Shown one piece after another: positions 33,082-50,934 of a stretch of 64,000 nt of DNA. Below the pieces are notes generated by a model that was not told where the DNA came from, searched no databases, and saw only the letters and a program-made list of their open reading frames with translations. The translations under genes were made by a program, and so were the position numbers. Source of the stretch: Dehalococcoidia bacterium. GTDB lineage: Bacteria > Chloroflexota > Dehalococcoidia > Lucifugimonadales > SHYT01. Positions within the stretch are counted from its first letter, which is position 1, and each line of letters starts with the position of its first letter. The stretch lies in contig SHYT01000004.1 in the NCBI GenBank assembly GCA_009692665.1, positions 62,001 through 126,000 of the forward strand, in the 5' to 3' direction.

Positions 33082-35994
33082 ATGACGACACCGTCACGGA
33101 TTGAGGCGTTCCGAGGCATCTTGCGGCTGGAGGAGCGGCGCGGGTTTGATGACCGCGCGGTGACGAAGGGGCTGGATGCGTTTTTGGCCGGGTGGCAGCG
33201 GGAGCTGGAGGCGGCTGGAGAGATGCCTGGGCGGGCGCTGCTGCTGCGGCTGAAGGGCGCTCGGATCATTGGAGTGACATATGCGCAGATGGCGGTGGAG
33301 GCGAGGAGGGCGTGGGCGGAGCGGGCGTGGGGAGTTGTGGGGGGACGGGGGACGGCCGTGCCCCACCCCGCCCCATCCAACCCCCCTAACTCCCCTTCCC
33401 TAAAAGGAAGAGGAGAACAGGTACCGGAGACGACGGGCACTCACCGGGAGGTGGCGTCCGTTCATGGTTCGAGTGCCTCACCACGAACGGGTTCTGCCAC
33501 TGTGGTTGCGGCAAATACGCGAGGGACGGCCCCGCGTCCCGCCGCTCCTTCCCCTCACCTTAGCCCTCTCCCACAAGGGGAGAGGGCTAAGAAGGCGGTA
33601 GGGCCGCCGGTGGAGTCTGGGGTGACGATGGTGCGGGGGGTGGGGCCGGGAATCGCTGAGAAGCTGGCGGCGCTGGAGATTTCGACGGTGCGGGACTTGC
33701 TGTACCACTTTCCTCGCAAGCACATCGTGCCGGTGAAGATTTCCGAGCTGACGGCGGGCGAGGAGCAGGCGATTATCGCCACCGTGTGGGAATCGCGGAT
33801 CGTCAGAATGGGCGCGCGCATGGAGGCGACCGAGGCGACGGTGGTGGACGAATCGGGGAACCTGCGGATTGTGTGGTTCAACCAGCCGTTTGTGGCGCGA
33901 TCGCTGCACACGAATGACCGGGTGCTCATTACGGGGAACCTGCGGCCTTCCCGTGTACAAACTCGCGGGGGGCAGATGCCGTTTGAGCCGACGGGGTATG
34001 AGACACTGCAGCCGGACGATGACCTGTTCAAGCTTGGACGCCCGTTCCCGATTTATCCGGCGACGGAAGGGCTGACGCAGCGGATGTTGCGGCGGACCAT
34101 CCGCGAGGCGCTAGACGTGTGGCTGCCCCGACTAGAGGACAGCGTGCCGCAGCGCGTGCTGGCGAAGCTGGGGCTGCCGGGCCGGCAGGATGCGCTAGCC
34201 CGCTACCACTATCCGAACGACGAGGCGGCGCTTGCAAAGGCGCGGCGGAGGCTGGCGTTTGATGAGCTGTTCCTATCGCAACTGGGGGTTCTCACGCGGA
34301 AGCGGCGGTGGCAAGAGCAGGGCTCGGGCGTGGTGCTGAAGCCGCCGCCGGGAGTGCTGGAGACGTTCTTGAAATCGCTGCCGTTTGCGCTGACGGGGGC
34401 GCAGCAGCGGACGCTGGACGAAGTGCTGGACGACCTATCAAAGCCGGTGCCGATGAGCCGGTTGCTGCAGGGCGAGGTCGGCAGCGGCAAGACGGTGGTG
34501 GCGCTGGCGGTGATGCTCGCGGCGGCGACGTCCGGGTACCAGGCGGCGCTGATGGCCCCGACGGAGATACTCGCTGAGCAGCATTTCCTCACCGTATCAA
34601 AGTTGCTACAGGGGCTGTCGAAGCCGGTGCAGGAGCAGTACGTGACGGTGGTGTACGTGGAGCCGCACCCGCAGCCGATTGCGGTTGGGCTGCTGCTGGG
34701 GAGCATGCCGAAGCGGGCGAAGGACGAGCAGGTGGCGCGGATTGCCAAAGGGGGCATAGACATTCTGATTGGGACGCACGCGGTGATTCAGGGGGACGTG
34801 GCGCTGAAGAACCTGGCGTTGGCGGTGGTGGATGAGCAGCACCGGTTTGGAGTGGAGCAGCGGGCGGCGCTGAGGGGGAAGGGGGCTGCCTCTCCCCTAG
34901 TCCCTCTCCATCTGAGAGATGGCGAGGGGGACTTTGCGGGTACTCCGCGAGAGGTGGCGTCCGTTCATGGTCCGACAGGCTCACCACGAACGGGTTCTAC
35001 GACTCGGGCTAGCGGCAAACGTTCGGGTACGGATTTCCCTCATTCTTCGGGGCAAGCTTCGACCTCCGTGCCGCTTCCAGCTTCGCTCGAGACAGGCTCC
35101 CTTCACCCTAGCCCTCTCCCACAAGGGGAGAGGGGAAAGGGGGGGCGGATGGTGCCGCATCTTCTGGCGATGTCGGCGACGCCGATTCCGCGGTCGCTGG
35201 CGCTTACGGTGTATGGGGATTTGGACCTGTCTGTGCTTGACGAGCTGCCGCCGGGGAGGCAGAAGGTGCGGACTCGGTGGGTGCGGCCGGACCAGCGGGG
35301 GAGCGCGTACGAGTTTATTCGGAAGCAGGTGGGAGAAAGGCGGCAGGCGTTTGTGATTTGCCCGCTCATCAATGAGTCGGAGGCGTTGCAGACGCGGGCG
35401 GCGCTGGAGGAGTACGAGACGCTGTCGAAGCAGGTGTTCCCGGAGCTCCGGGTGGCGCTGCTGCACGGGCGGATGCCGCTCAAAGAGAAGACGGCGGCGA
35501 TGGACGCGTTCCGGAACCACCAGTCGGACATTCTGGTGTCCACGCCGGTGATTGAGGTGGGCGTGGACGTGCCGAACGCGACGGTGATGATGATTGAGGG
35601 GGCGGACAGGTTTGGGTTGGCGGAGCTGCACCAGTTCCGTGGGCGCGTGGGGCGCGGGCAGCACGCGAGCTATTGTATGTTGCTGGCGGACGACCCCTCG
35701 GAGGTGGCGCAGCAGCGGCTGACGCTGCTGGAAAAGGAGAGCGACGGGTTCAAGGTTGCGGAGGCGGACCTGGCGCTGCGGGGGCCGGGCGAGGTGCTGG
35801 GGACCAGGCAGAGCGGGATGCCAGATTTTCAAGTGGCGACGCTGACGGACCAGGAACTGCTGCTGCTGGCGCGGTCGGAGGCGACGGCGCTGCTGGCGGG
35901 GGACGCGGAGCTGCGGCGGGCGGAGCACCGTGCGCTGGCGCGGGAGTTGAAGCCGTACTTGAGGGGCGAGGCGGAACGGGCGGATGTGAGTTAG
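33082..35994 (+). CDS. recG: ATP-dependent DNA helicase RecG with two in-frame repeat insertions
   Basis: RecG remodels stalled replication forks and Holliday junctions. The wedge/OB region starts near residue 176 (VTMVRGVGPGIAEKLAALEI, YHFPRKH). Helicase motif I is LLQGEVGSGKTVVALAV (about 462-478), motif II VVDEQHRFGVEQR, motif III LAMSATPIPRSLALTVYGDL, then VCPLINESE-type domain 2 motifs and the Arg-finger block HQFRGRVGRG. The frame is 970 residues against the usual 700-830. The excess lies in about residues 85-175 and 602-689, which are low-complexity Pro/Ser/Gly stretches encoded by palindromic repeats; both contain the peptides REVASVHG and SPLPQGER. The second insertion lies between motifs II and III. 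No stop is introduced. ATG 33082 follows GAGGAG. Confidence 0.92.
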   Translation: MTTPSRIEAFRGILRLEERRGFDDRAVTKGLDAFLAGWQRELEAAGEMPGRALLLRLKGARIIGVTYAQMAVEARRAWAERAWGVVGGRGTAVPHPAPSNPPNSPSLKGRGEQVPETTGTHREVASVHGSSASPRTGSATVVAANTRGTAPRPAAPSPHLSPLPQGERAKKAVGPPVESGVTMVRGVGPGIAEKLAALEISTVRDLLYHFPRKHIVPVKISELTAGEEQAIIATVWESRIVRMGARMEATEATVVDESGNLRIVWFNQPFVARSLHTNDRVLITGNLRPSRVQTRGGQMPFEPTGYETLQPDDDLFKLGRPFPIYPATEGLTQRMLRRTIREALDVWLPRLEDSVPQRVLAKLGLPGRQDALARYHYPNDEAALAKARRRLAFDELFLSQLGVLTRKRRWQEQGSGVVLKPPPGVLETFLKSLPFALTGAQQRTLDEVLDDLSKPVPMSRLLQGEVGSGKTVVALAVMLAAATSGYQAALMAPTEILAEQHFLTVSKLLQGLSKPVQEQYVTVVYVEPHPQPIAVGLLLGSMPKRAKDEQVARIAKGGIDILIGTHAVIQGDVALKNLALAVVDEQHRFGVEQRAALRGKGAASPLVPLHLRDGEGDFAGTPREVASVHGPTGSPRTGSTTRASGKRSGTDFPHSSGQASTSVPLPASLETGSLHPSPLPQGERGKGGRMVPHLLAMSATPIPRSLALTVYGDLDLSVLDELPPGRQKVRTRWVRPDQRGSAYEFIRKQVGERRQAFVICPLINESEALQTRAALEEYETLSKQVFPELRVALLHGRMPLKEKTAAMDAFRNHQSDILVSTPVIEVGVDVPNATVMMIEGADRFGLAELHQFRGRVGRGQHASYCMLLADDPSEVAQQRLTLLEKESDGFKVAEADLALRGPGEVLGTRQSGMPDFQVATLTDQELLLLARSEATALLAGDAELRRAEHRALARELKPYLRGEAERADVS
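33381..33418. repeat. Purine/pyrimidine palindrome, first module of recG insertion 1
   Basis: CCCCTAACTCCCCTTCCC followed by TAAAAGGAAGAGGAGAA forms an imperfect hairpin. It is read in frame in recG as NSPSLKGRGE. Confidence 0.55.
33458..33490. repeat. CCGTTCATGG...CCACGAACGG repeat, recG insertion 1
   Basis: A 33-base dyad with arms CCGTTCATGG and CCACGAACGG (9 of 10 pairs), preceded by GAGGTGGCGT and followed by GTTCT. Further copies lie at 34961-34993 and 39315-39348. In recG it encodes SVHGSSASPRTGS. Confidence 0.85.
33552..33591. repeat. CCCTCACC...CCCTCTCCC/GGGAGAGGG repeat, recG insertion 1
   Basis: The arms TTAGCCCTCTCCC and GGGGAGAGGGCTAA form a long near-perfect hairpin. Other copies are at 35101-35139 and 45591-45627, and in reverse orientation at 7160-7196. 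It encodes HLSPLPQGER in recG. Confidence 0.8.
34891..34932. repeat. Palindrome, first module of recG insertion 2
   Basis: CCCTC-t-CCATCT-gag-AGATGG-c-GAGGG (34902-34928) is a near-perfect hairpin preceded by CTCCCCTAG. It occupies the same place in the second recG insertion as the 33381 module in the first. Confidence 0.6.
34961..34993. repeat. CCGTTCATGG...CCACGAACGG repeat, recG insertion 2
   Basis: A 33-base dyad like that at 33458-33490, again preceded by GAGGTGGCGT and followed by GTTCT, and read in the same frame (SVHGPTGSPRTGS). Confidence 0.85.
35101..35139. repeat. CCCTCTCCC/GGGAGAGGG repeat, recG insertion 2
   Basis: TCACCCTAGCCCTCTCCC and ACAAGGGGAGAGGGG repeat the 33552-33591 module, read in the same frame (HPSPLPQGER). 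Confidence 0.8.
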
Positions 35995-39293: not shown

Positions 39294-39314
39294 GTTGCAC
39301 GTCCTATGTGGCGT

Positions 39315-39348
39315 CCGTTCATGGATTCGACAAGCTCACCACGAACGG
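39315..39348. repeat. CCGTTCATGG...CCACGAACGG repeat, intergenic copy
   Basis: Third copy of the dyad found twice in recG, preceded by GTGGCGT as in recG, here between genes just upstream of the small disrupted gene. Confidence 0.85.
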
Positions 39349-39384
39349 GAACAAATGAGGTTTCTACCTCTGTAGAACGATGAG

Positions 39385-46414: not shown

Positions 46415-46548
46415 TAGAGGGCTCCTTGGCGGGACAACGCCTGCGATTAAGTGATATTTAAGTATAGCAAGGGCAGCGCATGACCGCAGGGTAAAGGGTT
46501 AATGATAGATGCAGTCTCGTAGGGATGTGGATGCCACTTCGGGGACGT

Positions 46549-46588
46549 GGGGACGTAGGGGCGTAGCATGCTATGCCCCTACGTCCCC
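46549..46588. repeat. 40-bp near-perfect palindrome
   Basis: GGGGACGTAGGGGCGTAGCA and its inverse meet at 46568/46569; 19 of 20 positions pair and the other is G-T. It lies between convergent or divergent-reading ends of hisF (upstream side) and gdhA (downstream end) and could act as a terminator for gdhA. It shares GTAGGGGC with the palindrome at 50906-50934. Confidence 0.7.
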
Positions 46589-47848: not shown

Positions 47849-48634
47849 AGCTGCTCCTTGTCGTTACAACGGCATCACAAAAAGTAACACGAGGGGAATT
47901 GTACTCTTTGCGGGTAAGAGACTCCCCATTGTGGTACGGAGGGTTGAAACGGTAGGCCTGTTTCTGGACTACCCACGCAACCTCTAATCTTGCTGAAATG
48001 GGGCTTTCTTTTCTCTGAAACGCCAGATGGTTTCTGCTGCACTCTGGCGTGTATATGACGAGAATATATGTAAAGTGTCACCATGACTTCGCGCGGCATG
48101 GTTTTAGATGCAAGCATCTTGCAACAACTGGCCCGCAAAGGCCCATGTGCTGGGGAGATCGCAGGATGCTTATCCGAACTGGATATGGGACGCCGATTTG
48201 GAAGTGAAGGCTCAAGGTACTGGAGAGGACGTCGAAGTCTAAGCCTCGTGGCCAAGCCCATATCCAAGCCTCCATCTAGGAAAGCACCGTGTGTTGGTGG
48301 GGTCAAGCGTTTGTTGTCATGAGGTGGTTGAAAGAGTTGTTTTCAGGTAGAAATTGCTGTGATGGTTAACGCCTTTGTGGGGCTGGCGCAGAGCTAAACG
48401 CTTCGATGAAGGCGCCTACTCATTTGCGCGTGGCATAGCCTGCCACGCCACCTTATCCTCCCCATAGGTGTGTTATACTCCCGTGCTGAAACCGAGGACT
48501 GAGAGCTATCTCAGAACCTGTCTCCCAAGGAGGGACAGGCCGGCAGACAAGGCATCCACACCAATGGCGACCACACAGGAAAGTGCGCGGACGCGTCCTA
48601 TCCAGATCCAACCGGCACAGGCAAAGGGGGGAAC
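47849..48634. other. Gene-free stretch upstream of ppsA and gdhA
   Basis: 786 bases between divergent genes. A 44-codon ORF (48108-48242, starting MQASCNNWPA) has no ribosome binding site and is doubtful. A -10-like TATACT lies at 48474-48479 and may begin the ppsA message, but I see no good -35. An imperfect hairpin CCTGTC...GGACAGG (48520-48541) lies in the putative ppsA leader. Confidence 0.45.
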
Positions 48635-50905: not shown

Positions 50906-50934
50906 GTAGGGGCGGGTTTCAAACCCGCCCCTAC
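50906..50934 (+). terminator. 29-bp perfect palindrome after ppsA
   Basis: GTAGGGGCGGGTTT and AAACCCGCCCCTAC are perfectly complementary (14 bp) around a single C. No T-run follows. It is also a member of the GTAGGGGC palindrome group (46549-46588). Confidence 0.6.

Follow-up and report, generated by a model that had tools for sequence, protein, structure and literature searches.

The recG gene of this Dehalococcoidia genome carries two in-frame inserts which, with a probability that we put at roughly 0.85, are dispersed, non-autonomous palindromic repeats of a REP/MITE-like kind, inserted at loop-coding positions and predicted to be tolerated as spacers. That these inserts are real and behave like Rickettsia palindromic elements (RPE) is well supported, and the comparative pattern behind them is unusually clear. 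Coordinates given without a further label are those of the window, the whole 64,000-nucleotide stretch of DNA that was analysed.

The two inserts of recG

The 970-residue product of the frame at 33082-35994 is a complete RecG. It contains the Pfam domains RecG_wedge, DEAD, Helicase_C and RecG_dom3_C, its best fold match in structure comparison is the RecG of 1gm5, and the GSGKT, DEQH and SATPIPR motifs are all intact. A preliminary description of this DNA had reported two in-frame low-complexity stretches within the 970 codons, one before the wedge domain and the other between helicase motifs II and III; open reading frame and Pfam analysis bore out both the stretches and their positions, with sizes of about 83 codons (insert 1) and about 85 codons (insert 2). 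The features are as follows.

33082-35994, plus strand: recG, 970 codons, host of both inserts (open reading frame; Pfam; fold match 1gm5)
33343-33591, plus strand: insert 1, residues about 88-170, N-terminal linker ahead of the wedge domain, approximate boundaries (pLDDT; dispersed repeats; variable linker in relatives)
33390-33415, plus strand: M1 hairpin of insert 1, CTCCCCTTCCCTAAAAGGAAGAGGAG (hairpin; dispersed copies)
33458-33490, plus strand: M2 dyad, copy 1, REVASVHGSSASPRTG (dyad search; dispersed copies)
33559-33591, plus strand: M3 hairpin, copy 1, encoding SPLPQGER (repeat search; hairpin)
34872-34885, plus strand: left arm of a 14-bp direct repeat flanking insert 2 (13/14 match; possible target-site duplication)
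34888-35142, plus strand: insert 2, residues about 603-687, between helicase motifs II and III (absent in relatives; pLDDT)
34902-34928, plus strand: first hairpin of insert 2, CCCTCTCCATCTGAGAGATGGCGAGGG, of a family other than M1 (hairpin; copy on contig C7)
34961-34993, plus strand: M2 dyad, copy 2, REVASVHGPTGSPRTG (dyad search; dispersed copies)
35112-35134, plus strand: M3 hairpin, copy 2, encoding SPLPQGER (repeat search)
35130-35143, plus strand: right arm of the 14-bp direct repeat, overlapping the end of M3 (13/14 match)
39308-39349, plus strand: solitary M2 copy, outside any open reading frame of at least 150 codons (BLAST)

Neither insert contains a stop or shifts the frame, and insert 2 separates motif II (DEQHRFG, residues 584-590) from motif III (SATPIPR). 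When the protein was compared with solved RecG structures the match began only at about residue 180 and was broken between about residue 602 and residues 683-688. AlphaFold2, run with an alignment of 37 RecGs, modelled most of the chain with good confidence; two long segments, 89-170 and 604-686, fell below a pLDDT of 50, and these coincide with the two inserts. The model thus predicts a folded RecG core in which exactly the two inserts are disordered. The inserts are also rich in proline, glycine, serine and threonine (51% versus 23%) and have GC3 values of 0.58 and 0.53 as compared with 0.85 in the remainder of recG, a composition to be expected of non-coding DNA that was recently read as protein. 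As RNA, both fold more strongly than shuffled sequences (z = -4.0 and -2.8), a score that was uninformative for several short G+C-rich inserts.

In the preliminary description each insert was held to contain the same three modules in the same order. The central dyad, M2 (CCGTTCATGG...CCACGAACGG, 33 bp), was indeed found exactly at 33458-33490 and 34961-34993, with an expectation of 0.00 in shuffles of the window, and on either side of it the two inserts are homologous (83% over about 83 bp). The M3 hairpin (CCCTCTCCCACAAGGGGAGAGGG, 23 bp) is likewise present in both, at 33564-33586 and 35112-35134, a few bases downstream of the positions first given for it (33552 and 35101). The first hairpins are different dispersed repeats: CTCCCCTTCCCTAAAAGGAAGAGGAG of insert 1 matches contigs C2, C22 and C27 and has no match to CCCTCTCCATCTGAGAGATGGCGAGGG of insert 2, which is found at C7:27055-27081 with 27/27 identity. 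Judged by these alignments, the two cassettes have two homologous modules in common, arranged in the same order, where three had been described.

The peptides REVASVHG (residues 122-129 and 623-630) and SPLPQGER (residues 161-168 and 677-684) do occur twice in the same frame, as previously noted. The M2 consensus has no stop in any of the three sense frames, M3 being open in two and M1 in one, and since the sole open frame of M1 is the one used in RecG and Mfd, the reading frame common to both recG copies is largely forced. The direct repeat around insert 2 is compatible with a target duplication, a reading that is only suggestive because the repeat consists largely of purines and shares part of its length with M3.

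Copies elsewhere in the genome and in relatives

A search of the genome for the modules showed them to be dispersed. M2 was found in 15 copies at up to 3 mismatches (control 0) and in about 27 copies by BLAST in the 1.58 Mb genome, genome-wide counts being drawn from searches and selected regions. M2 is commoner than M1 and the M3-like hairpins, and the majority of repeat copies lie outside supported genes. A loose M1 pattern gave 18 matches against 15 in the control and so did not rise above it; M1 as a dispersed repeat therefore rests on BLAST, by which further copies were located at C22:5718 (85% over 62 bp), at C27:28194 (88% over 52 bp) and in mfd.

One M2 subfamily lies at the centre of a MITE of roughly 200-260 bp, present in about 9 copies (loci L002, L003, L010-L013, L015, L113 and L114), whose terminal inverted repeats, TAGTGGGTCAATTTGA, and flanking duplications of about 9 bp were recognized by eye in an alignment. 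This element suggests that part of the M2 copies were spread by a transposase. The TAGTGGGTCAATTTGA ends are absent from the window within 3 mismatches, and the recG inserts are without them. The Y1/RAYT transposase (PF01797) had no match in the genome, which is about 91% complete, while controls gave matches; no transposase linked to the repeats, and none cognate to the MITE, was identified. Other repeats were also observed in the window. Palindromes at 46543-46587 and 50906-50934 (GGGGACGTAGGGGCG... and GTAGGGGCGGGTTTCAAACCCGCCCCTAC), which have similar copies elsewhere in the genome, are situated outside likely genes or at a gene edge, and a 128-bp dispersed repeat at 48044-48171 occurs also near mfd (L093:4735-4858, 75% identity).

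In addition to recG, three genes of the same genome contain the repeats in frame. The mfd gene has a composite of 86 amino acids with the module order seen in recG and a second insert of 36 amino acids containing an M1-type hairpin, both missing in 7/7 relatives aligned. Ribonucleotide reductase has about 14 amino acids around an M3-type hairpin, read in a frame other than that of recG, and in sbcD about 26 amino acids are derived in frame from M2 on the opposite strand; the latter gene encodes a Pfam metallophosphoesterase, putatively named SbcD from similarity and loop context. In all, six inserts were counted in four genes (two each in recG and mfd, one each in the others), and the mfd, ribonucleotide reductase and sbcD insert sequences are not present in relatives. 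Copies of M2 or M3 in open reading frames without Pfam support were left out of the coding count, as were those upstream of the likely true starts of TGT, SerA and HAD. The similarity between recG and mfd may extend upstream of insert 1, as an alignment at 64% suggests. All four host genes act in the repair or recombination of DNA or in making its precursors, a DNA-metabolism role thus being found in 3/3 genes other than recG, which was the source of the query. Differences among the RecG1, RecG2 and Mfd1 composites are not concentrated at third codon positions in this small sample, and the peptide therefore shows no sign of selection.

The exact absence of both inserts from the recG of relatives had been raised as a check on their origin, and insert 2 is precisely absent. 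The loop between motifs II and III has just a few residues in 27 RecGs of the same order (LRAKGERPHLL in one of two genomes of the same family) and at most about 18 residues in 37 distant RecGs. A quick RecG tree places the order together with a Dehalococcoidia assembly, which makes Chloroflexota its probable phylum; a RecG scan across named organisms gave no close named relative. At site 1 the N-terminal linker varies in length and content throughout the order, so that no clean empty-site comparison is available there. One of the distant RecGs, from Patescibacteria, holds an in-frame perfect palindrome, GTAGGAACAGGGC-ATT-GCCCTGTTCCTAC, with arms of 13 bp, in the very loop that insert 2 occupies here (L058:4282-4310; RNA z = -7.1). 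The site 1 linkers of three relatives (G050, G051 and G030) contain unrelated hairpin repeats that recur in their own genomes, abundantly so in G050 and G051. The preliminary description regarded unrelated inserts at the same sites as evidence against an RPE-like origin; such inserts do exist in form at site 1, and the idea withstands them because those inserts, too, consist of palindromic repeats from the genomes that carry them.

The other loops gave a similar picture. In the ribonucleotide reductase loop, G002 has a hairpin of which its genome contains over 20 additional copies, and G001 has another palindrome, further copies of which were not among the matches listed. The SbcD loop contains GTAGGGGCGACCC-GCC-GGGTCGCCCCTAC in G002 and an M2-like dyad in G001, each repeated elsewhere in the respective genome. 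On this comparative evidence, the recG, reductase and sbcD loops of relatives hold different palindromes that are mostly dispersed repeats of their own genomes. Relatives of M2 were detected in 12 of the 59 genomes searched, and between genomes its stem differs by paired changes (GTTCATGG/CCACGAAC, GTTCATCC/GGACGAAC and GTTCATGC/GCACGAAC), so that the conserved feature of M2 is the dyad. G001 was also seen to have two full-length mfd-like genes (C10:13785-17360 and C11:102729-106244), 75% and 70% identical to that of the present genome over the C-terminal half, which points to a paralogue or to contamination of the assembly (8%).

Origin and meaning of the inserts

We propose that REP/MITE-like palindromic repeats insert into loop-coding positions of recG. 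The modules would bring few stop codons in the frames used, the open frames coming from the repeats themselves, and insertions into loops or linkers that stay open would be translated as disordered, low-complexity spacers which the enzyme tolerates. The repeats may escape purging because they carry few stops in those frames and because the sites are linkers or surface loops. Modules would pile up side by side to form composites, of which one may have spread between genes at least once (recG and mfd), and whatever palindrome family a lineage has would repeatedly invade the same loops of orthologous genes. The insert peptide itself is most likely without function. No composite was found outside coding sequence, a distribution that is not predicted by simple random spread and that counts against this explanation.

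It is unlikely, in our estimation, that the inserts are adaptive, that is, that palindromes in genes for repairing, recombining and replicating DNA change the enzymes or the way they are expressed, such as through a mutator effect or through hairpins that retard translation or make the mRNA more stable, a speculation of Di Nocera et al. The roles of the four host genes match the bias reported in PMC3733652, both recG inserts fold as RNA beyond shuffles, and relatives were hit repeatedly in the same loops; however, the peptides show no sign of selection, the same loops are filled by different, unrelated palindromes, and four genes are a tiny sample that is uncontrolled for protein length or loop content. 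A plain intragenic duplication of the first cassette, with no mobile repeat involved, which the preliminary description had also allowed, would explain why M2, its flanks and M3 are common to both inserts in order and orientation. It is nevertheless very improbable and contradicted as a full account by the unrelated first hairpins, by the third composite in mfd and by the solitary copies of all modules elsewhere, a recent duplication of the M2-M3 part alone being possible.

Still less credit can be given to an ancient, family-specific loop domain of RecG: the length of the N-terminal linker varies throughout the order, but the loop at site 2 is just a few residues long across the order, the two same-family genomes included, the insert sequences match dispersed repeats, and no homologous long segments at site 2 were seen in relatives. 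An assembly artefact is about as improbable, for while the assembly consists of 31 contigs and repeats cause misjoins, these would not leave all six inserts, spread over four genes, in frame with the protein halves in order, and comparable inserts are present in independently assembled relatives. The inserts are sharp and in frame, as would be those of an intein, intron or other removable element, yet this account is scarcely conceivable, as they comprise only 83-85 amino acids that are open in frame, Pfam recognizes no intein or other splicing domain, and Rfam finds no catalytic RNA fold, matching only a tRNA in the window.

If the inserts are tolerated palindromic repeats, protein-tolerated palindromic DNA is probably extended to Chloroflexota, with new repeat families, and the different palindromes in orthologous recG, sbcD and reductase loops make insertion, turnover and tolerance traceable in related lineages. 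Peptides such as SPLPQGER, SVHGS..SPRTG and IPASAGMT in environmental proteins would be explained as repeat-derived and should not be read as domains. A wider reading is offered as speculation that we ourselves doubt. Throughout the order and outside it, as in the Patescibacteria RecG, palindromes particular to each lineage would land again and again in loops of DNA-metabolism enzymes: in ribonucleotide reductase, SbcD, Mfd and, within RecG, the N-terminal linker and the motif II-III loop. If true, it would mean that palindromes preferentially enter, or are kept in, DNA-metabolism genes and in this way tune genome maintenance.

Comparison with known systems

Palindromic repeats read in frame have been described before, and the preliminary suggestion of a perhaps undescribed kind of repeat system has to be withdrawn. 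RPE, dispersed palindromes lying in frame in unrelated housekeeping proteins, were reported by Ogata et al. in 2000 and 2002 (summarised in PMC10969869 and PMC3733652). Like RPE, the recG repeats are dispersed palindromes that occur in frame within unrelated protein-coding genes as well as outside genes and are apparently tolerated, as the site 2 absence, the genome dispersal and the copies in Mfd, ribonucleotide reductase and SbcD indicate. They differ in belonging to another bacterial lineage and in forming composite cassettes of several repeat families. The recG repeats would thus work like RPE, a likeness in behaviour by which membership is not claimed.

In 2013, Di Nocera et al. reported in-frame REPs of the GTAG and CGTC families, with clusters encoding 43-82 amino acids and with many of the REP-bearing genes acting in DNA synthesis and repair; in one case, recB, different REPs were found at about the same site in orthologues (PMC3733652). 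The main text of that work does not name recG, mfd, sbcD or ribonucleotide reductase, and records Chloroflexi for GTAG repeats only (PMC3733652); a literature search that covered few subscription journals returned no paper on such insertions in Chloroflexota. The present inserts share with intragenic REPs the in-frame clusters, the host genes of DNA synthesis and repair and the orthologous sites hit by different repeats, and they provide an independent data point, testable in one order, for the 2013 claim that DNA-repair functions are over-represented among REP-bearing genes. In contrast, M1, M2 and M3 fall outside the GTAG and CGTC formats. The CGTC format has an 8-9 bp stem starting with A/T pairs and a loop of 4-5 bp, whereas in M2, though CGTC or TGTC precedes it, the stem has 10 bp and begins with CG and the loop far exceeds 4-5 bp, and M1 and M3 have neither tag. 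Since the formats do not fit and RAYT was not found in the genome, we do not file the repeats under GTAG/CGTC REPs. The likeness to MITEs lies in the M2 subfamily at the centre of an element with TAGTGGGTCAATTTGA ends and flanking duplications, and the difference in the lack of those ends in the recG inserts. The phenomenon being already described, the novelty of the recG inserts lies in the composite cassettes and in repeat formats outside GTAG/CGTC.
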